A DNA stretch of 46,931 nucleotides from Utricularia gibba (Eukaryota > Streptophyta > Magnoliopsida > Lamiales > Lentibulariaceae). The notes below the pieces were generated by a model, which was not told the origin of the DNA, made no database searches, and was given only the letters and a program-made list of their open reading frames with translations. Below are positions 50-41,438 of this stretch, piece after piece. Location: the NCBI GenBank assembly GCA_002189035.1, contig NEEC01000125.1, positions 1 to 46,931 on the forward strand, in the 5' to 3' direction. The position numbers and the translations under genes were made by a program. Every line of letters begins with the position of its first letter. The first letter of the stretch is position 1.

Positions 50-1487
50 CTCACGTATTTCTTCCCAAGGTATCACCATTGGTGATTCTCTATCCAACAA
101 TGTTGATGGAGATGAATCAACCTCTTCTAGTCCAGTCAGTCATCTTCCAGTGTCCCTCTCAATCTCATCAGTATCGGATGGCTCTATTTCACATTTTTCA
201 AGATTGAAAGATAGAATTTCTAGTTTGTGGTGGTATGCAATACGAAGATGGCACACAGTATGTACTTGCTGACTACTATTTGCATTGGGGGAAATTAGGA
301 AGTACAGAATAATGGATGAGTTTGGTTTTTAAGTTTTTCCTGTCCTCAATTGCATTTGGATGAGTTTCATCTCTTACAATGTAAAACAGTTGCTACCATT
401 GACCCGGGAAATGCTCATGTTGGCTCTCCGCACAAACCTCATGTTCTTCTATTTTGAAGGTCATCGGATCAGATACTTCTTTTCAGAGAAAGCATTATAT
501 GTTTTTGCTTACTCATCTATGTTTCATCCATATTTTGTTGGTCTCTTGCAGGCCTCTATTATCATATATCAAAAAGAGCTGCTGGGATACGTTATGTTTA
601 TGTAGGCAAACCTACAGATCAGAGGCCAAGGTTTTCTTAAACGTTAAGCCTTCAACATGGAAAAAAAACTTGTTTGCAGGCTTTTGATGAGTTGAATTTT
701 CCTATCAACACAATTTGCTCACTTGTGTAATATGTGCAATTTTATGAAGGTATCAAATCTTGGGCGTTTTTCTACTAGCTCAGCTTTGCATCATTGGTGC
801 TGAGTGGTTAAGGAGAAGCAATTTGTCCTCTGTCGCTGCTTCACTTCAGCAAACATCTACTGGAGCTTATCCACCTTCAGCAGGCTAGTGCTTTTTTTTA
901 ATAGAAATTCATCTGTGTTGACATGCTTTCCGCATCCCTTTCTGTTAGATGCAATGCCTTTTCACTCCTTTCTGTGTGATATTTGCTGTTACATTAGCAA
1001 TGACACACGGCTTTCAAATCACCATTGGCAGTTAGGGGCATTCCTGTTCTAACGAGGAGGGAAATCTCGTTGCTGAAGACTCTATAAAATCTGTGGGGAA
1101 TTCAGAATCCACCTCTACTTCCAGTGTATGGCGCCTTCCATCTCTTAATCCATGGCTTTGAATCACTCCACTACCAAATCAGTTCATGACAGTGATTCTA
1201 TTTCCCAGGCCCCCATCATCAGAACAAGCAAATGCACCCTCTGCTTGAGTAATCGTCAGCAGCCAACAGCCACTCCTGCGCCATGTATTTTGCTGGTATC
1301 ATCAGCAGCACTCTTTCTCTGTGTTGTATTCTTCCGCGTTTGTGATGGTTGATTGTGCTCTCTCTGGTTTGGTTGCTTCCGCAGGAACTGCATAATGGAA
1401 TGGTGTAACGAGAAGCCGGAATGCCCACTGTGTCGCTCTCCGGTGACGCATCCTTCTCTCGTTTGTCTCCATCACTCCGATTTCTGA
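50..1487 (+). CDS. PEX10: PEX10, peroxisomal RING-type E3 ubiquitin ligase (3' part)
   Basis: PEX10 is a peroxisomal membrane E3 ligase that acts with PEX2 and PEX12 to ubiquitinate the import receptor PEX5. The 5' end lies outside the window. Exons read from splice sites and family resemblance: 50-257, 390-459, 552-630, 750-883, 1032-1125, 1209-1295, 1385-1487. Exons 2-4 encode the membrane region (LMFFYFEG, YYHISKRAAGIRYVYVGKP, ILGVFLLAQLCIIGAEWL). Exon 6 starts the C3HC4 RING (SKCTLCLSNRQQPTATP) and the last exon completes it (NCIMEWCNEKPECPLC), ending HHSDF. Two frame breaks: one base missing near 1051, and two missing near 1280-1283 where the family has CGHVFCW. Each fits contraction of a short run, so I treat them as likely sequence errors. 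The intron after 883 has a GC donor. Identity is firm; whether the gene is intact is less certain. Confidence 0.88.
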
Positions 1488-1703
1488 GGGCGGTTCCCTC
1501 TGTTGTTTACACAGTTTCCCATTAGGGCTCGTTCTAATGATAAATATAATTTTTAAAATGAAATATATATTAAACCCTTTTTTGGAATAAATAATTAAAA
1601 GGCGCGTATTATTATTAAAAAAAGAGAGATAGCGTTTGGTTGGCGGAAAACAACATGACGCAGCTTATCTTCTCGACGCGGGATGAAAGCAGGGATAGAA
1701 CAA

Positions 1704-2622
1704 ATGGCAGTTGCCTCCGCCGCCGTCGCTTGGAGCAGCGTCTCCGTTCAGAACAGTCTGATCAGACTTCACTACTGCGTTTCGGATATTTCGTATCGGC
1801 GTCGCGGAACTCTGAAATTGAGGAATTCCGGTGACGATGGCGTCGCGGCCGTTGAATCGGAGTCTAATTTGCCGGAGGAAGTTCCGAAAATCACCCGCCC
1901 GTCGTTGATTTCCGCAATCAACGTGGAAAAGCCTTGCGCCGCATCGGTATTCTCGAAATTTTGATCCGGTTTCTAATTCGCTCCTGCAATCGATGGTTCA
2001 CGCAGTAGAATTGCAGCAATTACGGATGCCGATCACTACGGGAGGCTCGATCTTCGCAGCGGATGCGCAACCGATGAGGTCGTAGTTTCTAATTTTACTC
2101 CCATTTTTTTTCAAAATTCCACCAACTGATGCCTGTATTCAGGTTGAGGTTGCCTACCGGAACAAAGTAATGGAGGCAATGAACAGAGGCTTAGAGGAAG
2201 AAGATCTCAACAAGGAGCTCGATCTGTTGAAGGTTTTGTCAATTCCCTAATCGGCAAAGCAAATTTCATAGATAGACATAAGATTTGAAGTCTTTAGGAA
2301 TCGTATACCATTTTGTCGACGGCGGAAGAGAGGAGACTCTACGATTGGAGTTTGGCTCGGAACATGAATGCAGATAGATATGTTTGGCCTTTTGAGCTTG
2401 ATTCGACTCCGACCTCCTCCGGCGACCCTCCTCCTGAGGTACCACCCCGGTCATGTCATGGATTAATGTTTCAATCAGATTGCCCCTCCACGAGCGCCGT
2501 ATCACTACCATCGAGTTCCTTTTCAGGAGCCGGAGGACGAAGCGCCGACAAGGATCGTCGGATACATTCTTCTAGGTTGGGTGTTACTCTCGTTTGCTCT
2601 CTTGATCGCTTTCGACATTTAG
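1704..2622 (+). CDS. NDHU: NDHU, chloroplast NDH complex subunit U
   Basis: NdhU is a nuclear-encoded subunit of the ferredoxin-binding part of the chloroplast NADH dehydrogenase-like complex, which runs cyclic electron flow at the thylakoid. Exons: 1704-1946, 2017-2078, 2143-2232, 2298-2438, 2527-2622, all bounded by GT-AG. The first 45-60 residues are Ser/Ala/Arg-rich and look like a plastid transit peptide. The J-like core follows (AITDADHYGRL, then AYRNKVMEAMNRGLEEEDL), then ERRLYDWSLARN and DRYVWPFELD. One transmembrane helix (IVGYILLGWVLLSFALLIAF) ends the protein. Exon 1 lacks one base near 1930 (a G in VEKALRRI); adding it gives 210 residues. The second ATG (1704) is preferred because MAVAS starts a typical transit peptide; the ATG at 1683 is in the same frame. 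The gene follows PEX10 after only 216 bases. Confidence 0.88.
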
Positions 2623-2719
2623 GCCAATCCTCCTCTCCTCCAAGCAGCATGTGACTTTTTCTTTGACAAGATGAAAAATATAGCCGTTGTTATTTGTACG
2701 CGGAATCGATGGCCCAGAT

Positions 2720-2770
2720 ATCCCACATCGGCTACGCAAATAGTTCATTGGGAATTTCAGCCACTATAAA
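2720..2770 (+). promoter_or_regulatory. U5 snRNA promoter: USE and TATA box
   Basis: The plant snRNA upstream sequence element (consensus RTCCCACATCG) is matched exactly at 2720-2730 as ATCCCACATCG. A TATA box (TATAAA) lies at 2765-2770. The gap of 34 bases is the spacing known for RNA polymerase II plant snRNA genes; polymerase III types such as U6 use about 10 bases less. Transcription should start about 30 bases after the TATA box, at about 2800. Confidence 0.85.
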
Positions 2771-2800
2771 ATCCCCAATTGCATCCCCACTTACACATAA

Positions 2801-2916
2801 CAGCTGCGAGATAAGCACAAAGCGAACTATTCTTTCGCCTTTTACTAAAGAATACCGTGTGCTTGTCTCACCACGCAGCATACCCCAATTTTTGGAGGGC
2901 TTTTCACAAAGGCCCT
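2801..2916 (+). ncRNA. U5: U5 spliceosomal snRNA
   Basis: U5 snRNA holds the two exons in place during splicing within the U5 and U4/U6.U5 snRNPs. The invariant loop 1 (CGCCTTTTACT) is at 2836-2846, flanked by a perfect stem (ATTCTTT / AAAGAAT) and by AAGCACA / TGTGCTT further out. A basal stem pairs CTGCG near 2804 with CGCAG near 2875. The Sm-binding site AATTTTTGG is at 2887-2895, followed by a terminal hairpin (AGGGC 2896-2900 with GCCCT 2912-2916). Promoter elements lie upstream and a 3' box lies just downstream, so this looks like a functional gene and not a retro-copy. Exact ends are inferred. Confidence 0.92.
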
Positions 2917-2923
2917 GTAATTC

Positions 2924-2930
2924 AGTTCAA
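2924..2930 (+). terminator. snRNA 3' box
   Basis: AGTTCAA matches the core AGTNNAA of the plant snRNA 3' processing box. It starts eight bases after the terminal hairpin of U5, with a CA dinucleotide at 2923-2924. It would direct 3'-end formation of the U5 transcript. Confidence 0.65.
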
Positions 2931-3691
2931 CAAGTTTTTCCATTCATGATGGGAATTGTGACCAATGAGAGACAATTTAAACTTATCCTTCAACAACCAA
3001 ATGACGAGGTAGGTCCGTGTGGGTTTGTCGGTTTAGCTTCTTGGGTGTGAAGTGGAATCCAGTTGATAATACTTTTTTTTTCTGAGAGGTTTCGCAAAAC
3101 GCAGCAGCGGCATGTGTGTGCGAGGCTTGTCGCGCAGGCGGCAGAGTTTTCAGAGCAGCTTTTTTCCACATAACTTCGAAAAGGTCTTCGTCTGTGTTGG
3201 CAGGCACTCACATGTGCGGTCGGCCCCGACGACGTCGTTTTCACACTTTGTAATCATCATTCTCATTCCCTGCTTGGCTGGTTTTTATCTATCTTTCTTA
3301 TTATTGTTTTATCTTTCGTTTGTATTACAGGAAAGCACTACTTCACCACACCACCACCGATGCTAACGAGACACTGGGTGTTGCCGTACGCAACACCACG
3401 GTGAACCCCTCAACTAATCAGGTAATTAGACCAAGATCATTATCATTGGTGCAAGAAAAGAGTATCATCACATCTTTGTGCTTCTTCTGTACGTGGGATT
3501 TGATCCATAGCTCTGACTAAACATGAGTTTTTCCTCATTTCTAAGGTGGTCATCGCTTTGAGTTCTAATATAACAACACCGAGTGCTCCACATTTGGATA
3601 CTGTCCCATCTCGATAATAATATGAATAAGTTTGCTGCAAGATCCATGAGTATGGGGAACTCGGGTTTCTGGGTTCTCAAGCATTGTTCTT
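2931..3691. other. Intergenic, no gene recognised
   Basis: This stretch lies between U5 and the 3' end of the trihelix-like gene. It holds an exon-like piece at about 3331-3420 bounded by ACAG and GTAATT, but no frame matched a family I know. An ACGACGTCGTTT-type promoter word is at about 3226-3238. The last part (about 3500-3691) is probably the 3' untranslated region of the minus-strand gene. Confidence 0.4.
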
Positions 3692-4794
3692 TTATGTAGA
3701 GGAGAAGTTGAATTTGTGGCCGGTTAATTTCTCCAGGTAAGAAACAATGGCAGCTTCTCTGTTATCAGCTAGTCTCTTCTCTCGAGCTCTTGCCTTGGCT
3801 TCCTTCTCGAACCTCGCCATTTCTTGAACTCGCCACTCCTCTTCCCTCGCGCGTCTCTCTTCATCCAGTCTCTCGATCATCTCCGTGAACTTGTTGTTCA
3901 GAATCTCCTGATGACTCATCATCTGCTTCACTAGCTTACCGAAAAACTCAGCCATCGGAGGGATCACTTCTCTGTACTCACTCCTCCTCTTTCTCCTCTT
4001 CTTCTTCCTCGCGTTCGAGCCTTCTTCTAAGTCCTCCTCTTCGTTCTCTCCAGCCGTGGCATCGGAGCCTTGATCCGGCTGGGCCGCGTTTGCCGATGGG
4101 AGGCTTTTGTATATGGCTTCCAACTCCCCGAACTGTACTCTGCCCGTGGCATGGCTTTGTGCCTGTGCGCCGACTGCTTCACTGTCTTCATTGGATGCGT
4201 CTGCTGCAAGAGGCTCCCTAAAAGCAATGCAACGGGGCAATTCAGATTAGGGAGTTTGTCTCTTTGTTGTGTACAAAAACCAAATCTAATCAACGTGATC
4301 CTTTTTGTCCTAAGCGATTCCTTCATGGATTCTCCAACCCAAAAGAAGCAAGCATAATCATCATATATTCTCATACACTATGCATTATGCAGAAGAGAAC
4401 AATTACCAAAAGGGTTGGTGTAGTTTAATCCCGAATTGAAAGTCCCAAAGGAGGGTCTCGTCTCCGCAACTCCACTCTCTTTAAGCTCGTTGGGAGAACA
4501 AAATTCGTTCAACCCAAGCCTGAAGTTGACGGCGGGGAAATAAGGCGCCGCCGTGCCGGCAGCGGTGGCGCTTCCGGATCCTCCAGCGACGAAGTTCTGC
4601 GGGAGGAAATGGTGGTGGTTCTGGAAGAGGTGATGGTGGGTTGTGGGCTGCATTGAGTGGATCTGGTGAACAATGTGTGTCTGGTTCATCCACACGACGA
4701 CCGGTGCTGATGATTCGGGTGGGTTCTGCGGCTCCTCAGGCTCGAAACCGGGTTGGGTCGTGGATCTTTCCATACCGTAGCGATAATTCCTCAT
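3692..4794 (-). CDS. Trihelix/GT-2-like protein lacking the DNA-binding domain
   Basis: Two exons on the minus strand, 4794-4407 and 4203-3692, joined by a 203-base intron (donor G|GTAATT, acceptor CTTGCAG|CA) that keeps frame and gives 299 residues. The acceptor 13 bases upstream would break the frame. The second exon resembles the C-terminal half of trihelix factors: ELEAIY as at the end of a trihelix domain, an acidic stretch, a basic KKKRRKRR signal, then AEFFGKLVKQMMSHQE and a long charged coiled coil ending ADNREAAIVSYLEKLTG. The N-terminal half is His/Gln/Ala-rich. The Myb-like trihelix domain (about 85 residues) expected before ELEAIY is absent, and the intron is too short to hide it. 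The start is the first in-frame ATG; a longer open frame upstream has none. It could be an internally deleted member or a family I do not know. Confidence 0.6.
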
Positions 4795-5426
4795 CGCAGC
4801 AGCAGCACCAGAAGAGGAGGGAAGAAGAAGCTGAAGAGATTGGGGATTTTGAAGAGCTCTTCCTCCCACACACTGCGGTGGCGCCTTTCTTTCTTCCCTG
4901 TTGTTGTGATGGTGTCACCTTCCGAGAAGATAAAAAAGCAATAACCCCGTGGGTGTGTGTGTAGGCAGTCGTCAGTCAGGTTCCATATATTTTTCTACTT
5001 CAGAGGACATGTTATTTTGTACTTCAAAAACAATTAAAATAATCACAACTTGCATCTATCCATTTTATGCGTCTCAGAACAATCAAGAATTTCATCCCAT
5101 TTCCCCAACAACACACACTAACTATCAAGAAGACGTAAAACTGGGTAAGCTGTGAGTAAAGCGGAAAATGGCGTCATCGTGTTGGGTACGAAGACGATGA
5201 AAAAGCCAAGGGTTTCGTGGAGGGGTGGAAGGGAAGAAGGACAAGGGGCACGTGTGCGAATGCGGGTGATAAGAAGGTAAACATTAAACCCTCGTTACCC
5301 AAAAGAATTGAATGTAAATGGTGGCGCACGTGAATGGATGGATGGGGAGCCCCGTCCCTTTCACCCCATTCATTCTTATTTCCCTAAATGCCCTAAAAAT
5401 CTCTAATGGTTATGTACTCTTTTTTA
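4795..5426. promoter_or_regulatory. Upstream region of the trihelix-like gene
   Basis: This is 5' sequence of the minus-strand trihelix-like gene. It holds a short GT-rich run (about 4949-4962) and ordinary mixed-composition DNA. No TATA box or coding exon could be fixed with confidence. Confidence 0.35.
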
Positions 5427-5840
5427 GGTAGTGTTTAGTTGGGGTATAAGGGGGATTAATTAATGGGTATTAGATATTAATGTGTTTATTTGTGGTTTAT
5501 ATATCCTGGATTATACGTAAATTTGATAAATTTTTGTTGGTGGGATTATATAAAATAACCACACCCCATTACTTTACTTAATCCCATGATATGATTTTAT
5601 CAAATTAACTTTATCTTACACCTATATTTATTTTTAAAAAAAAAATTCAATTCAAAAAGTATTTTAGTAATTATCTTTTTTAATCTCATATATTTTAACG
5701 TCATCAACAACATAGTATAACATAATCTCATATTAACTAACCAAACACAATAAAAAATGATATTTTATCCTATTCTACTTCATTAATCCTCATTAATATA
5801 AAATCACTCATCATATTACTGTCAATTAAACACACCCTTA
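5427..5840. mobile_element. MITE-like foldback element
   Basis: The left end (GTGTTTAGTTGGGG) and the right end (AATTAAACACACCCTTA) form an imperfect terminal inverted repeat of the GTGTTTRGTT type common in plant MITEs. Inner parts also fold back, for example AATTTGATAAA near 5521 with TTTATCAAATT near 5596. A target-site duplication could not be fixed, so the borders are approximate. Confidence 0.4.
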
Positions 5841-8800
5841 CTATTTTATCATTTGATAAGTCCTAACCGGATAAAAAACTAATTTGACTTAAAATTGGGT
5901 ATTAAACAAACAATCTGACATTGAAAAATGAAAGTAAAATAATTTAATATATGCAATTTTTCAAATTATTATTATTAATTGAATTAATTTGTTAATGTGA
6001 TCTATATTTTTTGTATATTTGAATTTTACTTATGTTTATTTAATTAATCGAATTCTTAATTTCAAAATTTTATCACCATCATCCTTGGCAATGTGATGCG
6101 TGAGGATGCACCGGCGAGCGACAATAGATAGTGATCGATGGAGGATGGCAATGGGTGGGTGGTAATTTGAATATAAATTAAGATTGATAATGAATACCAA
6201 TTTTACCAAATAATAAAACAATATAAATTGATATTGTTTGGTTTTTTAAATTTAATTATGCCAACCAAATGGTGTAAACTGCATATGCAATTCTCCCAAC
6301 TCTTTCCAGGGCCCGTGGGCGAAACTTCAACTAAGAAAAGCCCATTTTGGAATATTGGGCCAGCCCATTTTCAATGGATAAACTCAAGTACGACTATTCA
6401 TCCTCTAGTACAAAAGTCGTACGTTGCTCGTATACATTTGTCAACGAAATTCTAACCTTGCTCATTTTTTTGTTTATTTTCTCAGAAAAAAAACCCACAT
6501 TTGTTTTTGTTGGCCGTAATAGTGTTTTCATTTTTCTATAAGTGATATAATAATTTTTATTTTTCATAATACAAAGTAAATGGTGTTTGGTAACAATAAA
6601 AAAAATATATTACATACACTTTTTAAATTAAGGGATAACGTGTGTGTGTGTAGAAGATAATATAATAAACAATGACTATAGATCATATGACAACAAAACT
6701 TTAATATGTGTGAATAATGCATGTAATGCTTGGAATCAGTACGTTATACTTTAGCCGAATGAAGAATGTAGAAATTTTATTGGAATCACTTAGAGTGATG
6801 ATCTAACGATATTTTATTCTTAATGAAATCAAATGGAGAATCAAGAATGGTTATACAAAGAGTGTTAATGAAAATCAAAATGGAATGTTTGAAATCAGTT
6901 CATTATGCTATAATTGAACATAAAAAGGTAGAATTTTGTTGGAATTTTATTGGAAGGATGATATAATGATATGTTATGATCTTAATGAAGTCAACATAAT
7001 AATGGAGATTATTCATACACTATTACACAAATGGATTGTTTGATAGCAAAGTATTAGCATGCTTAAGAATATAATTTTAAGCATATGAATGATATACATC
7101 TAACTAAGACTCCTCTTTATTTATATATATTACTCATATATCAAAAAATGAGTATGTCAATATATAATTATATAAAGTTAATATATGTATTAATCAATCA
7201 AATAATGATGTATGTGTAAATTTAGGTATATATTTTATATTCACTTATTAAATAACCCGAGAAAATACCACCGAAAATCAAAACAATTATAAAAGTTATC
7301 CCGTAGATGAGTTATTTAGAATCGGAAAAAAAATGAATATTTATCATTATAACTATTAAAAGAAATTATAATTTATGAAGCACTAATGAATACAAATATA
7401 AGAAACAAATATATTTGATGAGATAAGCTGGTATAATTGAATAATTAATTTACTAAATATTTTAAGAAATTATATAAATTAAATCTCATTTTAAATTTAT
7501 AATTACAATTAATTATACCTGGTGATTTTATCATTAAAAAAAAAAAATATTTATTAATAGAAAAATGCATACTTCTTAATTTTTTTTGTTTTGAAAGGAA
7601 TGAAAAATAAGGGTTCAATTTTTTGAATTTCATATTCTCCTATGAAACATGATGAATATCGAATATCCGAGAAATGATGATAATCCGGATGAAAGACAAT
7701 TCCTTAAATGCCCTTCCCAGCCGGCTCCCTGAAGCTTGACCCCCGGTCTATAAAAATGAACTAATGGGAAGTCCAAGGTCAACCCTGGTTAATAATTTAA
7801 ATCTTGGAGTAGGACCCACATAATTAGAATAGAGTATTCAATTTATAAGATTCTAATGGATATGGATCCACAAAATCGATATTTGATGATAAGTATCATT
7901 TAAATTTTAATATTGATAATTAAATATTTATAACTTTTTTACTATCAAAAAAATAAAAAATTGCAATGAATATGCACTTTTATTATTGGAAAACAAAATT
8001 TTACAAAAAAAATTGTAAATAAAATGAAGAAAAGAGAAATTATTTAAATTTAGCAGATAGGTAAAATTGTAATCGATTAAACCAAAACTCTGGTTTCAGT
8101 TCAAAATTGTATTTTTCATATGATCCCATTATGAAAAAAACTGTCAAAAAACATTATTTTTACTAACATCCATATATTGTAAGTGCCTAGAAAAAAGTTG
8201 ATATTTTTGAGAATGTTTTAATATACTCATAATAATTTTTATGAACCTTGAAGAAATTTAAAAAAAACATTGTGCTTCTAAAACATACACAATGGCTAAT
8301 GTGGGTGAGTGGAATAGAAATTTGAATCAAATTTGATATCAAATCGTGATTTATGAAAATGTTTTGGAAGGCATCACAACACTAGAGGTGGGTTTATTTT
8401 TTGTATATTTCAAGTTTTTAATATATTCACGAAAATGTAGCTCTGAAGCGCTGTTCTTCAGAGTTCGTTTCGAATGAGATGGGCCATGTTTTGATCAGGG
8501 GAGCAGACGATGTCGTTTTGGCATTTTCTAATTTTTTGTTTTTTTTTGCTTTTCTTTTTCTGAGATGCGGAAGAAGAGATTGGATATTAAAAAAGTAAAA
8601 AGAGAAACAAAAAGGGCCGAGGGATAAAAAAAAAAAAAAAAGCTCGTCTGCAGCGGCTCGTTTCCTGGAAGAATTCTTGAAGAAAGTCAAGGTCACTACT
8701 CTTGGGATCTGGTTCATTTTTTCTGTGAAGAGGGCGCACTGATTCCGCCGATCTGATTCAGTTCGGCCGCAAAAAGTGTGTTTTTATACGTGGAAATTGT

Positions 8801-8927
8801 CTGGGTAATTGCTGGTTTTTCGCTGTTCAGTTTCTTGGAATCCCGAAGGGTAATGCAAATCTGCGATTTTTTTTTTTTCAGTTACTCGTAGTGCTGGGAA
8901 GTAGTCCGTGGTTTCTTCTCCGTGTGT
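5841..8927. other. AT-rich intergenic region and SLOMO upstream region
   Basis: Mostly AT-rich DNA with no gene. A cluster of GGCCC/TGGGCC words stands out at about 6308-6368, like the site II elements of plant promoters, but nothing coding follows. From about 8430 composition becomes balanced; this is probably the promoter and 5' untranslated region of the F-box/LRR gene. Confidence 0.45.
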
Positions 8928-11900
8928 ATGAGGATTAGGTGCTTACTATTTTCCTGCTTTGGGGGCAGAGGAGAAAATTTATTTTCTTTTATCATTGGTT
9001 ATTTGCGTCGTTACCACCTTGCTGGTAAGCGGAACGGGTTGAAGGAGAGGGTAGTTTTGGGTGATGAATGTGAGGACATGGATGAAAATTCTGGATTCCG
9101 TCTTCGGGTGGTGATGCCGAGGGGTTGATCTGAATGAAGGGCTTTTTCTGATCCGGAAATGAGTCTTGCCGATGGGGATTTCAGCAATTGGATAATTCAG
9201 TTGCAATCTAGGCAGGGTGTTGTTGATGGGGTGAGGGAGGAAAGAAGATGCTAGCGTCAATGTGGGTTTGAGTGATGAGTCATCATCTTCCTTGGCGACA
9301 GCAATTACAATGGGAACAGAGCATTGTGAGCGTGATAACAAACGGAGTAAAACTCATTCTTTATCACTGTAAGACACCCGATTTCGCTTTCCATTTTATC
9401 AAACTCAGATTTTATCATCTTCGCATAATTAGGAAAAAAAAGATCAAATTATACTGTGTTGTTTCTATTGTTTCCCATATTCTTTTCCCGAGAAATGAAC
9501 ATAAGTTGTTGCACAACCTGATTTTCGTCTCTCTTGTTCACCATGAGCAATACTCAGTCATATTTTTTTCACAGGGAATGGGGCGAAAGGATTTGTAGTG
9601 CATCCATTACCCCTGTTTAGTGAATGCGATAACTGAGGTGGATACTAATTTGGGTGATCATGTTATTCCCATGGATAACAGTGGGATTAATGGAGATCCC
9701 ATGTTCCAGGATGATTCAGATGTTAGGATGGACCTTACTGATGACTTGCTGCATATGGTTGGTGTAACCCGTCCAACTCTCTACTCATTATCCTATTGTC
9801 TTGGGCTAACTATCCTGCTTATCTGTGAACTTATACAGGTATTCAGTTTCTTGAACCACAGTGACCTTTGCCGTGCGGCAATTGTTTGCAGGCAGTGGCG
9901 GGATGCTAGTACCCATGAGGATTTATGGCGTTACTTAAATTTTGAGGGTCGATCCATATCTGTACCGCAGTGTGAGTGTTGCATGATTTCTCTTTAATTT
10001 TTCCTAAATAAATTAAGTAAGCGAACCTGAATTCTTATTTAACTAAATTCGTTATCTTATAGAATTGATCAGGTGCAAGATGCATGACACTGATATTGAT
10101 ATGGATGTTTGAGTGCCAATATATAGTTTCTTATTTTTCCTCATCCAAAAAGTTTGTTAATTATTTTGTTTATGTTGGAGCTATTTATTGCCCAAGACAT
10201 GTGTCGAATATAGTTCATTTGTTCCTAAGCTTTGATTTTTTTTTTTTCTGAAATTCTGTTCAAGAACTAATCTTTTTAGTGGCTTTGATGTATAGTTGAA
10301 GTGATTTGTCGAAGGTACCCCAAGGCTTCTGCTGTTAATGTCTATGGCGTGCCTAATATGTATAACTTGTTGATGGAAGCTGCCGCCTCATTGAGGTATT
10401 TTTTACCGTAGAATGGATAGTTTATGTTGATTTACGAATTCCAAGGCATTTATGCCTTTTTTTTGTTCTCAGAAACCTTGAGGTTCTAACTCTTGGGAAG
10501 GGCCAGATAGATGAACCCTTTTTCCAAGTCTTGTGTGAATGCCAGGCGTTGAGATGTTTAATAATCAATGACGCTACTTTGGGTAATGGATTTCAAGAAA
10601 TTATGGTTTTCCATAGTCGATTACATGATCTTCAGATAGTGAAATGCCGCCTGTCACGGATCTCAATCAGGTTTCATTGAAATATTTCATTAGTTCCAAT
10701 GCTATCCCTTTCTAGAATAAAGATACATCTATCCTTGCAGGTGCCCCAAGCTTGAAACATTGTCCCTGAAACGCAGCTCTATGCCACAGGCCACTCTCAA
10801 TTGTCCTACTCTGCGCGAACTTGATTTGGCATCATGTCACAAGATGTCAGATGCTGCAATACGCTCTGCAGCAACTTCGTGCCCATTGTTGGAATCCTTA
10901 GATGTGTCCAACTGTTCATGTTTTAGTGATGAGACACTTCGTGATATTTCTGTTTCATGTGGAAGTCTTCATTCGCTCAATGCTTCATATTGCCCTAACA
11001 TATCTCTTGAAGTACGTTTTTATTTATTCAATCTCTATTTTTCTTTCAAGAAAACGAAGGATCATAATTTTCTCCAGTCAAATTACATCTTATTATTTAC
11101 TTTATCCTTTGAAGTCTGTGAGACTGCCAGTGCTGACCGTGCTAAAGCTTCATAGCTGCGAGGGTATAACATCAGCTTCAATGGCTGCTGTTGCGTATAG
11201 CTATATGCTCGAGGTTTGATTGCGCTGCTCAAGCATTTCTTTGTGCCTACTGTTTTTAATTTTTTCCAGAAGTTTAGCAAAATCTGATTTTTCTCATGTA
11301 ACATATCTTCTATAGGTCCTTGAGCTTGACAATTGCAATTTGTTGGTATCATTGTCATTGGATCTACCACGATTGAAGTGTATACGGCTCGTACATTGCC
11401 GCAAGTCTGTTCTAATTTTCATTGCTGGCCTTAAAAATTTACTCGCTGTTTGGATGAACTGAAACCTTTTTTTTATTCTTTCAGATTCGCTGATCTAAAT
11501 TTAAGAAGTAATATGCTGTCATCAGTTAATATTTCCAATTGTCCTTCCCTACTGAAAATAAGTATCACATCCCATGCACTGAAGGTAAACTTCATATTGT
11601 CACTCGCATATCCTCACACACACAAAATTGACATGTATCCATTCATTGAGGCAAATGTATTGAATTTATTTGCAGAGATTAGTCTTGCAAAAGCAAGAAA
11701 GTCTAAGAACCTTGATACTGCAATGCCGTTCCTTGGAAGAGGTTGACCTCACTGAGTGTGAATCTCTAACGAATTCCATCTGCGAGGTTTTCAGTACAGG
11801 AGGAGGTTGCCCTTTGTTAAAATCATTGCTTCTTGACAGCTGCGAGGTACATCACACGATTTCTATCCCAAATTTCAAAATTTCTTTCCATTAATTATTT

Positions 11901-23997: not shown

Positions 23998-24059
23998 TTT
24001 TTATCCATAAATTTTACTAGCTATAATTATAAAATTTGATAAACAATTCACCCTAAACC

Positions 24060-28759: not shown

Positions 28760-28789
28760 GGGTTACCATCATATGCTAATGAGATAGGA

Positions 28790-29902: not shown

Positions 29903-30269
29903 TGTTGGAGTGATAGTTCAATCAAGGACTTAACTGACTCGCCCAATGCATCAGACACAGAAAAGAAAACTCCCGCTGAGAATCCGACTTCGGAGAAGAA
30001 TAAGACAGACACGTTGAAGCTTCGCGGTCTGATTGTTCTGGGCTCCAATATTTCCTCAAATGAATACATGAAGAAGCCCAGTCAGGCCCATGTGCCAGAG
30101 CCTGAAAGCCCACCGTAATCCTGCACTCGAAGACAAAACAACGGCTAGTTAGATGCAGCAACGGATACTTTCTTCACTATAAATTGAGCATTGTACCTGT
30201 TTACAAGATACAGCCCTCAAGTTTTATAAATGTTATTTCATATCATGCCCTGTCTCTAAAATTATTTCA
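29903..30269 (+). mobile_element. Solo LTR in the ankyrin exon of copy C
   Basis: The 367-base block begins TGTTGGAG and ends TTATTTCA, with TG...CA ends. It is flanked by AGAAT on both sides (29898-29902 and 30270-30274). Copy B has the uninterrupted sequence GTCAGAATCTCCTGATGG at the same place. A TATA-like CTATAAATTGAGC and an ATAAAT near the end fit LTR promoter and polyadenylation signals. The internal retrotransposon was presumably lost by LTR-LTR recombination. Confidence 0.85.
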
Positions 30270-30710
30270 AGAATCTCCTGATGTTCGCCTTGAAATCGAA
30301 TCCAAAGCCTTGGATTATTAGAGAGTTGGTGGACCTGATGCCCAGGGACAGGTTGACCTTGGTTGACAACGAGGGCAACATGCCGCTTCACATCGCGGCG
30401 GAGTACGGGCGCTTAGAGAATGCTAAGCTTCTGGTGGAGAAGAACAGCGTGCTGCTAGCGACCAGGAATAATGAGTCGTTGCTGCCGGTGCACATGGCTG
30501 CCGCGAAACTCCGTAAAAGTATGACCTTTCTTTTTATGGAAAAGATGAGAACAAACATGGATGATGTGCTTGAAGGACCAGGTGTGGTGTCGCTCATGGA
30601 TTTCGCTCTTAGTTTCCAACTTTACGGTATGCACTACAAACTGCCCAAACATTGGTTTGAACGGATGAAAATGATTCTCATTTGAGTACTCAAAGAGTAT
30701 GGCTCTTGTT

Positions 30711-31117
30711 TATAGGAATAATGGCGCTGCAATTGAGTTGAAGAGGACAAAAGACCTCACAACAGACTTCCAAGTCGAAGGAGGGCTCTTTATTAATGTA
30801 AAAGAGTACAAAAAACGTTCTGTAAACTAAGGGAATTTATAGAGTACAAAATCAGTTGTCGAGATCCTATAATTCCTCGATGCGGTTGCCTAGAATGATG
30901 CCTTTGACTCCCTCAAATAATGGAAAGTAGTTGATCTTGAAGAAGTAAACCTACTCCACTTCCTTTCATAAGCATATGATTTGACCGACTCATGTTCAAG
31001 TAGGGTGTACTAGGTTATCGAGTGACATTTTCCATCCTCATTAGGGGTCAGTCTCCTTATTACCCCTCACCTTATGGCTCCAACCCTTATTTCTCCACTG
31101 ACCCATGTCCTTCAACA
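30711..31117 (-). repeat. Copia 3' LTR
   Basis: On the minus strand the LTR begins TGTTGAAGGACATGG, directly after a purine-rich tract (GAGAGAGGG). It contains an AATAAAG polyadenylation-type signal near 30790. It ends at the target duplication with CCTATA instead of the usual CA. Confidence 0.7.
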
Positions 31118-32438
31118 CCCTCTCTCAAACTTAGCTGTGGTTGGAGGCTAAGTTTGATTCTGAAAAATAGAAGTCTTTGAAATGGCATTCTCTTGGTGAA
31201 GAGATCTGCGAGCTGGTGTTGAGAGGGGATGTGACGAGTCACCAAGTAACCTAGGGCCACTCTTTCTCGAACAAAATGGTAGTCAACTTCAATATGCTTA
31301 CTTCGAGAATGTAGAACCAGGTTTACAGTCAAGTGCAGGGCACTGAGGTTGTCACAATATAGTGTAGGTGTGGTTGCAAGTTTAACTTGAATGTCTCTCA
31401 GAATGAACTGTAACCAAGTTACTTTTGCTGCGGTATGGGCCATTGCTCGATACTCTACTTCTGTACTGGAGCGAGACACTGTGTGTTGCTTTTTGGAGCT
31501 CCAAGATATTGGGTTTTTGCCCAAGAGAACACAATAGCCAGTGGTAGACCGTCGAGTAAGTGGGCAACTTGCCCAATCTGCATCTGAATGCGCATCCAAG
31601 CACATGGAAGAAGACTTGTCGAAGGACAATCCAAGGTTCAGCGTGCTCTTTATATACTTCAGGACTCAGGTGGCCAATGTGAGATGGTAGTGAGTTAGCG
31701 ACTGCATAAATTGTGAAATGAAATTCACACTGTATGTGATGTCAGGCCTTGTAAACGTTAGATATTGCAAAGCTCCTACAAGGGCTCGAAAGGGAGTAGG
31801 ATCAACAAGACGTTCTCCAGGCTGTGCAAGCTTAAGTTTTGACACTTGTGGTGTAGTGGCTGGCTTGCAATCTCAAAAACCAAACCTGTCTAAGACACAG
31901 AGAGCATAGTGAGACTGAGTAAGTTGAAGGCTAGTTGCAGTTTGTAAGACTTGGACTCCAAGGAAGTGATGCAAGGGACCAAGATCCTTCATACCAAATT
32001 CTGTGGATAATTTTTTGATCAAATCATGTATCAGGTCTGGGCTTGTTCCTGTTACAACGATGTCATCTACATAGAGGAGTAGGATTAGTGTATCACTGTC
32101 AACATGAGTGACAAATAATGACGGATCAAGCAAAACTACAAAAGAAACCCAAACTTAAGAGAAAAGAGCTGAAACGATCAAACCAGGCCCTCGATGCCTG
32201 TTTGAGACCATACAACGCTTTATTCAATTTGTAGACATGTGTAGGGTATTGAGAACTACGCATACCTGGGGGTTGCTCCATATAGATATTCTCTGTGAGT
32301 TCACCATGAAGAAAGGCATTCTTCATATCCAACTGGCGAATGTCCCACTCATTGATAAGTGTAATAGCGATTATCAGTCGGATGGTAGTTGGTCTGATCA
32401 CAAGAGAGAACGTTTCTGTGTAGTCAACGCCATCTATC
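31118..32438 (-). pseudogene. Copia RNase H and partial reverse transcriptase, degenerate
   Basis: Minus-strand order is reverse transcriptase ([26 protein letters not shown] with the YVDD catalytic motif, KDLGPLHHFLGVQV), then a connection region (PTPFRALVGALQYL, TRPDITYSV), then RNase H (DADWASCPLTRRSTTGYCV, ELQKATHSVS-region frame neighbours, SALHLTVNLVLHSRSKHIEV) running to the LTR. In-frame stops lie near 31880 and 31670 and a frame change near 32140, so it is not functional. Confidence 0.8.
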
Positions 32439-33149
32439 ACAGGAGAGAACGTTTCTGTGCGTCACCCCGGGTGGAGCGCTGCGATGCATGAAGAATTAGA
32501 AGCACTCCACAAAAACAACACCTGGACTTTGGTTCCACGAAGTTCTTTGCAGCACTCCATTGACTGCAAATGGGTATTCAAGGCAAAACTTAAGCCTGAT
32601 GGATCACTCGATCGTCTCAAAGCCCGTCTCGTTGCAAAGGGCTTTAACCAGATAGATGGCGTTGACTACACAGAAACGTTCTCTCCTGTGATCAGACCAA
32701 CTCCATCCGACTGATAATCGCTATTGCACTTATCAATGAGTGGGACATTCGCCGGTTGGATGTGAAGAATGCCTTTTTTCATGGTGAACTCACAGAGAAT
32801 ATTTATATGGAGCAACCCCCAAGTATGCGTAGTTCTCAATACCCTACACATGTCTACAAATTGAATAAAGCGTTGTATGGTCTCAAATAGGCACCGAAGG
32901 CCTGGTTTGATCGTTTCAGCTCTTTTCTCTTAAGTTTGGGTTTCTTTTGTAGTTTGCTTGATCCGTCATTATTTGTCACTCATGTTGACAGTGATACACT
33001 AATCCTACTCCTCTATGTAGATGACATCGTTGTAACAGGAACAAGCCCAGACCTGATACATGATTTGATCAAAAAATTATCCATAGAATTTGGTATGAAG
33101 GATCTTGGTCCCTTGCATCACTTCCTTGGAGTCCAAGTCTTACAAACTG
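31938..33149. repeat. Long inverted repeat of copia reverse transcriptase (hairpin)
   Basis: The left arm (31938-32438, minus-sense) and the right arm (32651-33149, plus-sense) are reverse complements over about 500 bases, separated by a 212-base spacer. By eye they differ by only a few bases per hundred. For example, CAGTTTGTAAGACTTGGAC on the left is matched by GTCCAAGTCTTACAAACTG on the right. A transcript through the region would fold into a long double-stranded RNA. Confidence 0.9.
32460..33149 (+). pseudogene. Copia reverse transcriptase fragment, inverted copy
   Basis: The plus strand reads [34 protein letters not shown] and [19 protein letters not shown], the N-terminal part of copia reverse transcriptase, then NAFFHGELTENIYMEQPP and LYVDDIVVTGTSPD. 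A missing base near 32700 and a stop in place of Gln near 32887 break it. The portion before 32651 has no partner on the left side and forms the hairpin spacer. Confidence 0.8.
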
Positions 33150-34608
33150 CCTTCAACATTGTTTCCAGATCTCGCTCTGAGGATTGTGGAGAAAAAGCGA
33201 TATCTTGCTATGAGCAGGGAAACAATGTGCCTCCCATTGAACATGTTGGCATGGAACTCCTCTGCCTTTCGAAGTGTGATGAAACTCGGGATCCTGCAAT
33301 TCCTTTTTCACTACTGTAAGCTAGCTTGCCTGGAAAAATACATTTCGAGCTCCGGTTTCTAAAACCAGTGAACAAATCTAATCTCGCTTTCTAGGTATTC
33401 CAGAGACGAATATATTTTCGGACACGCCGTCACCAAGTAGCACTACTATTATTGAAAGTTGGATTCGTACTTCAGGAATCACAAGTTTCAGGAATTGCAG
33501 GAAATCGGAGTTGCCACGCAGTCCCGCTTGTGAATAAGCTGTGTGAAGTGATCAATGTGGAAGCCCACGGACGAGCTAAAGATTTTCTCATGGAACCGCT
33601 CTTCGTCGCAACGTAGAACGGGGTGATTGAGATTGTGAAAGAGATAGTTGATTCGCATCCGGATGCTATCAACTTTAGCGACGACGACGGCACTACTGCG
33701 ATCAAACTAGCCTCGATGCATCGCCGGAGAAAGATATTCGAGTTCCTACAAAAACGCTACGTGCAAGGGGGAAACAACATGTGGCGCGGGTTTTATCGAG
33801 AAAGGAGCAATAATTTGCTGCATTTGGTGGCACGTAATCCGAAACAAAGCTACCATTACTTACCGCGACACCATCTTCGAGATGCGGCGCGAGTTGCTAT
33901 GGTTTCAGGTGATAATGGAATGAAAACATGGAACTCGTCGACTGTATCGCTGTTCTCTTCATCTTGGATCATCCTTATGTCTGTTTTGACTGAGCGGCAA
34001 TACTGATTGTGCTCATTCAATCTTCTTTGTGTCCAGGCAATTGAGGATATAGTGCATCCTTTGCAAAAGATGGGCTTGAATGAAGATAAGAAAACTCCTT
34101 GGGCTGTGTTCCTAGAAGAGCATCGCGAGCTTGTGGAGAAGGAAAAGAACTGGATTCTTTCCATCGTGACTTCATGCTCCTTCGTGGCGTCACTGGTGGC
34201 CACGGTTGCATTCGCAGGAGTTATCACATTTCCCGGCGGCAACAGTCCCGATGGGATGCCGAATTTCAAAAATAGGAGCACGTTCACAGTTTTCATCGAT
34301 TCCAGTAATGCCGCCCTGATCTCCGCCATCGCCACCATCGCAATATTCGTGAACGTATTCACCTCTCCGTTGAGGCCCATGGATTTCATGAGATTGTTGC
34401 CGAATAAAGTGATGTTTGGCCTCATCTTCCTAGCCTTTGCCGTCACCTTCTTGTTGGCAGCCTTTTATGCAAGTCTGATTCTCATCTCAGATCCTCAAAA
34501 ATTCTGCCGGCGAAGCTTCGGATTCTTGTAGTGGTACTGGCAGTCCTGGTTTATGCGGTGATCTATTTCCCATTATATTATCTACATCCATGGAATCGAA
34601 GAAACTAA

Positions 34609-37049
34609 TCGTCGACATCGAATGATCTGGGAGGGGTGAAGACGACGATGCTGCTTCCATGCACTACTACCATGTTGTAACCTCGAATTTCCGAATAATA
34701 ATTTAAAAAATGAAAAAAATCATGGAGTGTTCTTATTCTAACCATTAGACAATATTTAAAAAGAAATGATCTTTGAATACTTACGTTATTTTTCTAAAAT
34801 TCAGAAAAATGCAATAAACTCAGACATTCGGTAATATAATTACTTTATACTGTTTATGAAAATTATAAAAATATTTTTTACTATTTCAAAATCTGATATA
34901 ATTAATCCCTATTATTTCAAATAAAAAAATTATTACTCATTATTTATATAAACAGTTTGGTACAATTATTTTCTTTTTTTTTGAAATAATTGGTATTAAT
35001 AGTTTCCAATCATTAAAAAATTTAATAAAATTAATTTCCAATTGTGTTTAGTTATTTAATAATACAGACTCATTATACAAATGATTTCAAATAGTGGGAA
35101 ACTAAAAATGTTTAACATATAAAATTTTGGGAATTAAGTGTATTTAATATGTCAAACTTTATGAATTAATTATATTCGATATGTGAAACTTTTGAGATAT
35201 ATTTTGTCAATGAGGATAAAATAAAAAATTTATATAAAATGATGAGACTTAGTTTTATCAAAATATTAATCATTAATATTTTTTGATTATTTACTCATTC
35301 AAATTCATGAATAATAGAGCATAAGGAAAATAAAAAACACATGCCAAAATACTAATATTATAACAAAAATGTCTGGTTCTTGTAATGATTATTTCAATAA
35401 TTTGGTAGTATTTTTCTCATAAAACATGATTAAATTTTTCTCCATAGTACATAATTTCCTATTCTATTGTGTTAGAAATAATTCTATTCTTCAAAAAATA
35501 AAATCAATAGAAAGTAATTATTACCGAACATTCTTTGTCATGTTTTATAACGAGTTTCAAGCATAGAGCACATGTGATTTAAGTCCATAGCTTCATGATT
35601 GTGTTTGGTTTTCAATTCTCAAATCCCGTTGGATATGCGGATGCCTTCAATCCCCGCGAGCGCTATTACCATCGGGTTGGTAGGATCAAAGAATGAGCTA
35701 GACTGGATTAAATTAATTTTTGAAAATCATTGAAATCAATTCTATTTATAATTAATTCTATTGGTTTTTTTATTTTTTAATGCATATCAAATTCTATTTT
35801 ACGAGAATTAATTTTTTAAAATCAGTAAATTTGTATAAAAAGCATGAAATGATAATTTTTTTATAATAATTGATTTTCAAGAAACAATTCTAAAATTAAA
35901 ATTATAGTTACATATTTTTTAATAAATAATAAATTGGTAATATGATAAATAATTTATTTATCTTGATTTTTAAAATTTAATTTTAATATAAATATATTTA
36001 AATTAAAATAATAACGTAAATTATAATTTAAAAATTATGAAAATTTTTTATAATATATATGATATATAAAAAATATTTTAAATTATAAATTTTTAAGATA
36101 TAATTATTAATAAATATGAATAAATATATGATTTATTTATTAAAATTAATTTTTATTTTTTATATTATAAACATGAAATAATTTTATAATTAATCATTTA
36201 AAAATATTTTCAAACATATATAAGTTATTATTATATCAGAACTTTCAATTTTCCAGAAATTAACTTTAGAGTAATGTTTTAAAATGTAACAAGTTTCCCA
36301 CAATCCCGAGGAGCAGCTCTCGTTGGGGAACGGTGGCTTGGAACTTCCTTTCAGCGAAGTAGCCCACAGGTGAAATCCGGTGAACTCCCACCTATACGAT
36401 TACTAACACTACTAGATTAAACATTATAAATTAGAAGATTAACTTTATAAATTATTGAATGTTTTGAATATATGTTTTAATGATTAAATAAAATATTAAT
36501 TGAAAAAATTATAATATTTATTGTTTCATTTATTCCAAAAATATTAAGTTATTCATAATTTAATATATTAAATATATAATATATATTTTTATTTTATTAA
36601 ATTTTATAATATAATTTAGATTATTCTAAAAAATAATTTTGAAATCTCAAATGGATTTTATTCACATAATATAAAACACAATTTCAAATTATAGAAATAT
36701 TCATAGATTCGAGAAATTCAATAATTTATAAAGTTAATTATAGAATCTTAAGTTTTGATTTTATTACATAACTATTAAAGATTAGAATTTTCAAAAATTA
36801 AATAGAATGAATTCAAAAAATTATGAAAACAAAATTGACTCTATAATCGTGTAATGTCTGATGTTTAAAAAACATTAATTTATTCAACATGAATAGTTTT
36901 TTATATTAATTGAATTAAATTCTATTAAATAACAGCTATCACAATTTATTGACTATATTTTTTACCATTTAAAATACTAATAAAGTTATTTGTATGTATA
37001 TATGCTGATTAATTAATTTTAAAAGAAAAAAAAGTGAAAATAGTTTTTT
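34609..37049. other. AT-rich intergenic region downstream of the ankyrin array
   Basis: Up to about 35690 this is the tail of duplication unit C. From there to 37049 it is very AT-rich with no gene. A short GC-richer patch at about 36297-36385 resembles the first-exon region of ankyrin copy A (GAGCAGCTCTCGTTG, GAACGGTGGCTTGGAA) and may be the remnant of a fourth copy. Confidence 0.45.
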
Positions 37050-37715
37050 AAAGGGGTTTGTTCTGTTGTCCACTTCTCAAGCTCACTCCCACCGAAGGGA
37101 GCGATCCGACATCTTCATTCTCTCTTTTCTGATGTTAGTGGGGAAGTAGCAAATTTCCATTTTGCCAACTTCTCTTTGTTCTTGGTTTGCAGCCCCTGTG
37201 ATTCTTTTTCTTGCATAGGGATTGGCATTAAAGGGGTTGTGGTTTTTCGTTTTCTTTTTTTTGCTGTTGATTCACTCTCTAGCCTTGGTTGCGACAATGA
37301 CAAGGGAAACTAGATTTAATGAAAGCGAAGTCCTTTATTAGCCATTGTAGCTTCTCTTACTTCTGAATCCGCTGCGTACAATTATGCAATCCGTTTTTAT
37401 TTCTTGAGCAGCGGGAAAAAAAAAAAAAACAAAGGAATGGGTGGAGACATTTATGAGATTGGCGACTGAGTCTGATGGGTAACTTGTTGGTTCCTTTTAG
37501 AAACCTGTAGTGTTCTTTGTGAATTTTTTTTTAGCTTATTTGTAATTTTTTATATGGTTTTTGTAGGTGTTACTTGCATGAATGGTGGAGCTATGTTGCT
37601 CTGAGAGGACTTGATTCATGTTCACTCATGCTTCCTTGTTCTTTATCTAATGAGCTGTTGAAGCCTACTGGCTGAAGGTTTCAAGCTGATAGATTTCATC
37701 CTTTTTGTTGACACG
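37050..37715 (+). promoter_or_regulatory. Probable promoter and 5' leader of RDR6
   Basis: Base composition changes from AT-rich to mixed at about 37060. A pyrimidine-rich leader follows and, further on, possible leader introns (GTTAG near 37135; TTTTTGTAG near 37562). No upstream coding exon was found; the ATG at 37716 starts the family N-terminus. Confidence 0.45.
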
Positions 37716-40700
37716 ATGGGATTTGAAACCCGAGATGATGACATGGTTGTCACCCAAATTAGTGTTGCTGGACTTGAAGACTATGTTACTGCCAAGATGC
37801 TCTTGGATTATTTTGAGGATAAAATCGGACTTGTATGGAGATGCAGATTGAAAACTTCCTCCACCCCTCCTGATGCATATCCAATTTATGACATTGAGAT
37901 TGGTAGTTCACAAAGAAATAATAACTATGAGAAGGCACAGCGTCATGCATTTCTACATTTTGCAGCTCCACATTCTACGAAAAATGCTCTAGAATCTGCT
38001 AAACGCGGTGAGCTTATTATTGGAGAGAAGCAACTGAAAGTTGGTTTGGGACCCCAAAATCCCCACCGCTTTCATGAAAGGAGAATAACTACTGAACCAT
38101 ATCGGCTGTCTGATGTTTCCCTTGAGATTGGAGTAATGAAGAACCAAGATGAGTTTGTTGTTGGTTGGAGAGGGCCAAACAATGAGGTTGATTTTGTTGT
38201 TGATCCTTACAATGGTTCCTGTAAACTACAATTCACGAAAGATACTGCTTTTTGTGTGAAGGATAAACCAAAAGCCAGACCTCTTGTAATAAGGTGTGAT
38301 TTCAAGGTGGAGTTTTCATCAAGAGAGATACTTGGGATAAAACAATACAGGGATTTTTCCTTTTTGATAATTGTGTTGCAGTTGGCTTCATCACCTTTGA
38401 TATACTACAGAACAGCTGATGATGACATTGAAGATACAGTTCCTTATGATTTGTTAGATGATGATGATCCCTGGATCCGGACAACAGATTTCACTTCAAA
38501 CAGAGTTATAGGTCGATGTAATACATATCGAATTTTTCTGAAGCCACGGAATGGTCCAAAACTCAAGAAAGCCTTGGAGTACCTTCGTCAGAGAAGAGTG
38601 GCTGTACATGATGAATTTCGAGGAAAACTCTTTCAAGTTTTGGATGAGCCTGACTTGCATAGTATGACTACGATCCCTTCTTTTGTTTTCAGCGTGTTGA
38701 AGGAATAGATTTCAAGATTATGTTCTTGGTGAATGCACTGATGCATAAAGGTATTGTCAATTACCATCAGATGCCTGAGGAGTTTTTTGATATGTTGAGA
38801 ACTCAGCCGAATGAGCTCGTTGTAGCTTCACTTACGCACTTGTCTCACTACAAGCATCCTGTTGATAATGCTTTCAAGGCTTTGAAAGCTGTTCAGAAAT
38901 GGCTATCAAGAAATCCTAAACTTCTTGAGAAACGTAATAAACTGGGGGAAAGTATTCATGTCAGGAGATTGATTATTACCCCCACCAGAGCTTATTGTCT
39001 TCCCCCTGAAATAGAACTTTCAAATAGAGTTCTAAGGAAGTATGCAGATGTTGCTGACCGATTCCTAAGAGTCACTTTTACAGATGAAGCAATGCAGACA
39101 CTCAACAAAAATCTTTTAACCCATTACGCTCATCCAATACTAAGAGATAAGACATCATATCCAGTCCCACAAAAGACGACCGTGTTTAATCGAATCAGGA
39201 GTATTACAAAGGATGGATTTTATTTATGTGGGCGGAAGTACTCATTCCTGGCATTTTCAGCAAATCAACTGCGTGACCAATCAGCCTGGTTTTTCGCTGA
39301 AGACAGGAACATTAGTGTGAAGAATATTATGAGCTGGATGGGAAATTTTCCAAATAAGAATGTTGCAAAATTTGCTGCTAGGATGGGCCAATGTTTCTCC
39401 TCCACATATGAAACTGTAGAAGTACCTCCATCAGAAGTTAATTCAGATCTTCGTGATGTAGAAAGAAATGGTTATACATTCTCTGATGGCATAGGCATGA
39501 TTTCAATTGATCTGGCCATGGAAGTTGCCAAGAAACTGCAGTTGGCTCCTGATTTACCCTCTGCTTACCAAATCAGGTATGCTGGTTACAAGGGCGTTGT
39601 TGCGTGCTGGCCTTCCATGGGTGATGGAAAACGCTTAAGCCTAAGGCCCAGCATGAAGAAATTTGAGTCGAAACACACAATGCTGAGATATGTTCATGGA
39701 CTAAATTCCTACCTGGCTTTCTGAATCGGCAAGTCATCACACTTCTCACAGCTTTGGATGTTCCAGGTGATGTATTCTGGGGAATGCAAGAAGGAATGGT
39801 TTCAAAGCTTGATCAAATGCTTGAGGATCCTGGTGTTGCTTTTGATGTCCTCACTGCTTCCTGTGGTGAGCAGGGAAATACAGCAGCACTAATGGTAAGT
39901 ACTGGATTTAAACCCCAAGCTGAAGCTCATCTACGAGGCATGCTGATAAGCATTAGAGCTGCTCAGCTTGGTGATCTTAGACAAAAATCTAGAATTTTCG
40001 TTTCTTCAGGGAGGTGGTTGATGGGTTGCCTAGACGAGCTTGGCATACTTGAGCAGGGTCAGTGCTTCATCCAAGTCTCAAATTCTTCTTTGGAAAAGTG
40101 TTTCATGAAGCATGGATCAACTTTTTCCGACATCAAAAAGAATCTTCTAGTGGTCAAGGGCCTTGTAGCAGTTGCAAAGAATCCATGTCTTCACCCCGGA
40201 GATGTGCGAATTTTGGAGGCAATTGATGTGCCTGGACTGCATCATCTTTATGACTGTCTTGTCTTTCCTCAGAAGGGAGATAGGCCTCATACAAATGAAG
40301 CTTCTGGGAGTGATCTGGATGGAGACGTATACTTTGTCACTTGGGATGAGAATCTCATTCCTCCAAGTAAGAGAAGCTCACCTCCCATGGAGTATACAAC
40401 CCCAAAAGTCGCGGAACTGCCTCGCAATGTCATTCATTCGGTAATCTATTCCGAGATTTCTTGAGATGAATTTTTTTACTCATCAAAGCTTCTTAGAAAC
40501 CTGACCTTGCTTTCTGCTGCATCTTCTTCTGTTGATCCTAAGTGAAGTCATTTGCTTCCTTTACAGGACATAATTGACTTCTTCTCAAGGAACATTGTGA
40601 ATGAGAACCTTGGTACCATCTGCAACGCCCATGTGGTTCATGCAGATCTTAGTGAGGATGGAGCGAAGGATGAGAAATGCCTCAAATTGGCAGAGCTTGC

Positions 40701-41438
40701 GTCCCTTGCAGTTGATTTCCCAAAAACCGGTAAAATCGTGAGCATGCCACCTGAACTGAGGCCAAAGTTGTATCCTGATTTCATGGGGAAAGAAGAATTC
40801 CAAACCTACCGTTCCAGCAAGATTTTAGGCAAGCTCTACCGCAGAATCAAGGAAGCTTATGATGATGAATCAGCACCCCAGAATCAGACCTCCCCTGATG
40901 CCATCACATGGGATCCAGACCTTGTGATTCCTGGTTCAGAAGCTTTCCTACACGATGCATGGCCCTGCAAATGCTCATACGACGGACAACTAATGGGTCT
41001 ACTCTCCCAATACAAAGTGAACCGCGAGGAGGAGGTCGTTACAGGACACATATGGTCGATGCCGAAAACCAGTAGCAAGAAACAAGGGGTCCTCAAGGAC
41101 AGGCTCAGACATGCTTACGATGCACTGAGAAAAGAGTTCAGAGGTGTGTTTGAGAGCATGGGGCCGGAGTTTGAACAACTCCCGGAGGAAGACAGGAGTA
41201 TTGCATACGAAAGAAAAGCATCCGCCTGGTACCAGGTAACGTACCAGGAAAGGTGGGTAATGAAAACAAGGGAGTCTCTGGGAATTGAGGATGCATCAGC
41301 AGCACCAGCAATGCTGAGCTTCCCGTGGATTGCTGCCGACTATCTTGCGCGATTAAGGTCCGAGTTCGAAAACAGCAAAACTCCATCTCCTCTGAGCCGT
41401 TCGATTCTCTTGCCAGGTATCTGGCTGATAAGATTTGA
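37716..41438 (+). CDS. RDR6: RDR6, RNA-dependent RNA polymerase 6
   Basis: RDR6 copies single-stranded RNA into double-stranded RNA together with SGS3, feeding DCL4 to make trans-acting and other secondary siRNAs. Exon 1 is 37716-40440 and exon 2 is 40567-41438; the intron sits just before DIIDFF, the position I recall for Arabidopsis. The N-terminal RRM-like region (KIGLVWRCRLKTS) covers residues about 10-115. The polymerase core includes LCGRKYSFLAFSANQLRD, TFSDGIGMISIDLA and the catalytic loop GSDLDGDVYFVTWD, with DLDGD at about residues 867-871. The C-terminus reads DYLARL and, after a shift, SLARYLADKI. Three breaks (near 38693, 39685 and 41391) each need one extra base. With them the protein is 1,199 residues, close to the known length. 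I call it a probably intact gene with sequence errors. Confidence 0.93.

Follow-up and report, generated by a model that had tools for sequence, protein, structure and literature searches.

A redundant contig of the Utricularia gibba assembly: its frame breaks point to long-read consensus errors rather than gene death

Assemblies of heterozygous genomes are known to retain haplotigs, allelic duplicates of stretches that are also present on another contig. In the Kastor paper (PMC12007338), frameshifts and early stops produced by long-read errors are described as mimicking pseudogenes. For Utricularia gibba, a review table lists an HGAP assembly with a contig N50 of 3.4 Mb (PMC5793159), and "RDR6 (two copies), RDR1 and RDR2" have been reported in a study whose RNA-seq reads were mapped to CoGe assembly gid 28800 (PMC8333044). 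The stretch considered here is contig NEEC01000125.1 of U. gibba assembly GCA_002189035.1, 46,931 nt in length, referred to below as the window. A sequence-only reading had reported frame breaks in every conserved gene of the window, RDR6 among them, and had ascribed them to uncorrected long-read indels rather than to parallel gene death. The case resembles that of Kastor; what differs is the route to the errors, here a duplicate contig kept in the assembly and a plant protein motif that is conserved.

When 900 window bases were searched against the genome to which the window belongs (100,091,633 bases in 516 contigs), two places matched: C230, the 46.9 kb contig that is the window in its entirety, and C413, a contig of 5.67 Mb. 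The C413 stretch was aligned to the window in six adjoining pieces. Colinear blocks cover window positions 1-7072 (98.2% identity), 7064-19472 (98.1%), and 33940-46931 (99.0%); the middle, from ~19.5 to 34 kb, is diverged; and both ends of the window fall within the matching stretch. The allelic structural differences are an additional ankyrin copy and a Copia-like fragment, both in the window. C230 is very probably a retained allelic duplicate (haplotig) of the C413 stretch, with frame breaks that are residual consensus errors. It resembles the retained haplotigs of heterozygous genomes in being short, colinear with a long contig at 98-99% identity, and structurally different from it in places. 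The likeness does not extend to its neighbors in size: of 20 contigs sampled for length, 19 were below 75 kb, and the three of these that were searched (C20, C196, and C296, positions 1-500 of each) were all tandem repeats, not haplotigs. C230 is thus not typical of the short contigs searched.

The listed frame breaks are present in the sequence, and the earlier observation is confirmed in part. With 1280-1283 taken as one, they occupy 13 sites (reading frames were tool-listed for RDR6, SLOMO, and CID7 only; those of the other genes were judged by eye). Nine are confined to the window, with C413 keeping the base or bases that the window lacks (1051, 1280-1283, 9600, 12510, 15045, 18700, 23061, 27337, and 41350), and four are identical in C413. 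Site 1280-1283 consists of two missing bases, one after 1276 and one after 1280, and the comparison at 27337 is weaker than the others, the C413 partner being diverged there. Three positions could be refined: the break placed before 9623 lies at 9600, that at 15038-15043 at 15045, and that at 41391 at 41350. There are also losses in the reverse direction, C413 lacking a base at 41195 in RDR6 and at 18029 in CID7, with the window frame open at both. Further window losses had escaped the list: three in the first exon of PEX10 (after 134, 156, and 166) and, in other hand-drawn exons, at 11223 and 11257 in SLOMO, 4433 in a trihelix-like gene, and 14869 in the YLMG-like gene. PEX10 as a whole shows six losses and no substitutions relative to C413 in 769 bp. 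Two of the original generalizations were too wide. Shortening of a run of 2-7 identical bases was said to explain each break, but at 9600 and 18700 the missing base lies outside any run; these two are among 15 of the 70 one-base losses in window positions 1-19475 that fall at run length 1. Nor is every conserved gene affected by losses of the window's own: NDHU has none.

The distribution of losses is uneven along the alignment. Window positions 1-19475 hold 164 substitutions, and one-base gaps number 70 in the window but 17 in C413 (p = 8e-9 if an even split is expected). For 33159-46931 the substitutions come to 77 and the one-base gaps to 20 and 27, respectively (p = 0.38). Neither contig is perfect over the latter stretch, where the window fares no worse than C413. 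In the former, losses from the window depend on run length: per 1000 runs, 1.9 G/C and 1.2 A/T single bases were lost, ~13 G/C and 6 A/T pairs, 222 G/C five-base runs (2 of 9), and 161 A/T six-base runs (5 of 31). The rise is not a smooth one, with no losses among 84 A/T five-base runs.

Exons, drawn by hand and by eye, make up 10.7 kb of the colinear part, the remainder of which is 21.6 kb. Pooled substitutions number 2.33 per kb in these exons vs. 8.19 elsewhere, so that the relaxed constraint of pseudogenes is not what is found. The ratio of frame-shifting window losses to substitutions is 15:25 in exons and 100:177 elsewhere (Fisher p = 0.86), indicating that frameshifts have been purged from exons no more than substitutions have. 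For G/C one-base losses, a subset picked post hoc, the corresponding ratios are 11:25 and 26:177 (p = 0.011). This pattern of loss and substitution does not fit decaying genes. Parallel decay is rejected because C413 has the missing base or bases at nine of the 13 sites and PEX10 has lost six exon bases without a single substitution; the attribution to uncorrected long-read indels, which this evidence supports, also agrees with the dependence on run length, seen in non-coding DNA as well, and with the lack of purging from exons relative to substitutions.

Similar losses are found elsewhere in the assembly. C316 (38 kb) and C412 form another duplicate pair: over ~10 kb they show 4 substitutions, and all 16 gaps between them (12 of one base) are in C316, with none in C412. 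One GRAS locus has been assembled three times, on C422 (59.5 kb), at the end of C414, and at the start of C416, with 0, 6, and 1 gaps, respectively, over 1384 and 1001 aligned bases; C414 and C416 may be joined via C422.

GRAS genes are usually intronless within the GRAS domain. The GRAS model gave 70 matches in the genome, which were grouped by hand into 46 loci, duplicates included: 25 have a single unbroken match, whereas the match is split or partial in the other 21. Twelve of the latter were examined in their reading frames. Some of the splits are due to introns, others to contig ends or to divergence of the copy. Five of the split loci, all located on contigs of 2.1-8.5 Mb, shift frame at a common GGPP-x-R[IL]TG motif, where, as assembled, three have C runs of 5-6 and two have runs of 4. 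Of the 25 unbroken matches, 24 were sampled at the motif stretch; 18 were readable and six gave no readable hit. In the 18 readable copies (C316 and C412 both counted), the longest G/C run at the motif is 4. Independent gene death at one codon pair is unlikely; undercalled G/C runs better account for these breaks. A split at the same motif on C4 resembles an intron and was excluded from the five. As assembled, three GRAS genes that shift frame at the motif are on C142, C375, and C2; these have DELLA-like sequence. Across 70 kb sampled from long contigs, there are 4 G/C runs of at least six where a first-order Markov model predicts ~14; for A/T runs of at least six the count is 271 and the prediction ~223. 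The G/C depletion could also be biological and is weak evidence on its own. The genome search for FAE1_CUT1_RppA gave 56 matches, of which 13 are unbroken and near full length; this family was left out of the count of breaks, its introns being hard to tell from breaks.

The losses could have arisen in two layers. The first would be noise specific to C230 and, locally, to C413, in which single bases are dropped, more often in longer runs; low read depth on the duplicate may be its cause. The second would be an assembly-wide undercalling of G/C runs, megabase contigs included, yielding identical losses in both copies, and it is to this that we attribute, by inference, the four shared breaks. The sequence-only explanation is amended by the comparison with C413: the window is a redundant duplicate, four of the 13 breaks are not contig-specific noise, and bases are missing from C413 too. 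A further addition is the extension of G/C-run undercalling to long contigs.

Two of the shared breaks are in RDR6. By Pfam profiles, the RBD_RDR6, RDR6_2nd, and RdRP domains are present in order across three reading frames, with RBD_RDR6 and RDR6_2nd in frame 0, positions 1-228 of the RdRP profile in frame 2, and positions 231-476 and 479-582 in frame 1. Judged by the Arabidopsis RDR6 protein, the first break is presumably ~25 bases before 38693. Other explanations of 38693 were considered and dropped: a collapsed 10-base tandem repeat, since the frame-2 open reading frame begins upstream, at 38663, and a one-base loss fits better; and an intron nearby, by eye against the Arabidopsis protein. 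In a genome profile search, the RdRP model matched C2, C416, C413, and C230, and the RDR6_2nd model only C413 and C230, whose RDR6 copies are near-identical over 3.8 kb. The other RdRP loci, on C2 and C416, are likewise in pieces. RDR6 has 3 substitutions between the contigs where the rate in its flanks would predict 13.9 (P = 5e-4), a deficit that speaks for constraint after the two copies diverged.

The alternative that survives best is a mixed one, in which the window-only breaks are errors and some of the shared breaks, in RDR6 and NDHU, are true frameshifts. Several observations count in its favor, or otherwise against consensus error as the general cause. The contigs agree at four of the 13 sites (NDHU 1930, RDR6 38693 and 39685, and ankyrin B 25738). 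Over RDR6 positions 37716-41100, 2 substitutions and not one indel separate them, so clean an agreement that contig-specific random noise cannot explain the two shared breaks; at both of these a base appears to have been lost from a GG pair, and runs as short as this are rarely undercalled. The RDR6_2nd loci, two in all, are both broken. The RDR6 substitution deficit is smaller when the nearest, quieter flank alone is used, the flanks including a substitution-rich ankyrin junction, and NDHU, with 3 substitutions in 658 bp, two of them apparent amino-acid changes, is uninformative on constraint. The window has no excess of losses over 33159-46931. Among the GRAS genes, the breaks on C2 and C244 are not at assembled runs of more than 4. 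Many long contigs are sound: C413 outside the duplicated stretch carries three unbroken GRAS genes and seven near-full, unbroken FAE1_CUT1_RppA matches. Against true frameshifts, undercalls affect GRAS genes on long contigs as well; the RDR6 domains are otherwise present and in order; and at 25738, ankyrin copy B has four G in both contigs where copy C of the window has five, counts that fit undercalling at this site. A loss of NDHU tied to loss of the plastid ndh genes is not favored, ndhF being reported as present in aquatic Utricularia species, U. gibba included (PMC5072713). That some of the shared breaks are real is considered unlikely. Slightly less likely still is that those of both RDR6 and NDHU are, which would mean that the sole RDR6 found by the RDR6-specific model has been lost, with lesions on both alleles; if the shared RDR6 breaks were real, RDR6-dependent small RNAs would be lost as well.

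A decaying haplotype, in which the two contigs are true alleles and the window bears true null alleles of many genes, is highly improbable. It is compatible with the structural differences, which appear real (the extra ankyrin copy and the Copia-like fragment), and with the 164 substitutions over 1-19475, but it would require several unrelated genes to have been hit by one kind of one-base loss, in a manner dependent on run length, in PEX10 six times with no accompanying substitution, and it would not account for the bases missing from C413 where the window frame is open. Least probable of all is a true segmental duplication degenerating elsewhere in the genome: the window does stand apart as a contig of its own and differs in structure, but with both its ends inside the C413 match no sequence ties it to another place, and substitutions are fewer in its exons than outside them.

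Claims of gene loss and of copy number drawn from the assembly may err either way. Conserved genes, the three DELLA-like GRAS genes included, are broken where G/C runs are undercalled, and annotation could list these as broken. Retained duplicate contigs, on the other hand, inflate copy number, and the second U. gibba RDR6 is a concrete case, if the same assembly was used. The RDR6_2nd model yields two loci, as does the count in PMC8333044, but those found here are near-identical and lie in colinear duplicates. The two published copies are probably one gene on two contigs, provided that the genes counted, and the assembly, are those we take them to be. No duplicate-contig reading of the second RDR6 was found in the open-licence literature listings searched.

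Table 1. Features of the window (46,931 nt) and their breaks relative to C413.
Feature	Start	End	Strand	Breaks or basis
Probable redundant second copy of C413:4,203,544-4,243,960 (C413 minus strand)	1	46931	+	Alignment
PEX10-like gene	60	1487	+	Six bases missing in hand-drawn exons
NDHU-like gene	1684	2622	+	Break near 1930 common to C413
Trihelix-like gene	3760	4800	-	One window-only missing base, 4433
SLOMO-like LRR gene	9580	13350	+	Window-only losses at 9600, 11223, 11257, 12510
YLMG1-like gene	14340	15320	-	Window-only losses at 14869, 15045
CID7-like gene	16600	18951	+	One base missing at 18700 in the window and at 18029 in C413
Ankyrin-PGG copy A	21278	23997	+	Window-only loss at 23061; PGG domain (Pfam)
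Ankyrin copy B	25679	27453	+	25738 break also in C413; 27337 break absent from the diverged C413 copy
Ankyrin copy C (extra, interrupted by Copia-like fragment)	29504	34531	+	Alignment
RDR6	37716	41445	+	38693 and 39685 shared with C413; 41350 window only; 41195 C413 only

Apart from RDR6 and the ankyrin and PGG assignments, the gene names in Table 1 follow the sequence-only reading and are presumptive. For PEX10, the last exon is weakly RING-like, under the Pfam cut-off. The NDHU name is likewise presumed, and its break was placed against the NDHU protein; a PDB search with the first exon gave no match, and a Pfam scan of one exon matched no family. The trihelix-like and YLMG1-like names are also presumed. 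In the YLMG1-like stretch, bases are missing from C413 at 14888 and 14909, two positions of doubtful exon status. LRR matches in the SLOMO-like gene are weak (Pfam), and the Smr domain of the CID7-like gene (E = 2.7e-4) is under the Pfam cut-off.

In the ankyrin cluster, alignment over 19475-34000 gives three copies in the window and two in C413, a difference that might reflect unequal exchange within the tandem cluster, or its heterozygosity. The Copia-like stretch contains two inverted-repeat pairs, 31937-32134 with 32953-33150 (99%) and 32133-32385 with 32703-32955 (96%), which together form a palindrome at window positions 31937-33150 with arms of ~450 bases. Either a long read folded back on itself or a genuine inverted insertion could account for it.

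The tandem arrays of C20, C196, and C296 recur in numerous near-identical copies across further short contigs, with a spacing of ~314 bases or multiples of this (C20 and C296) or ~2,335 bases (C196).

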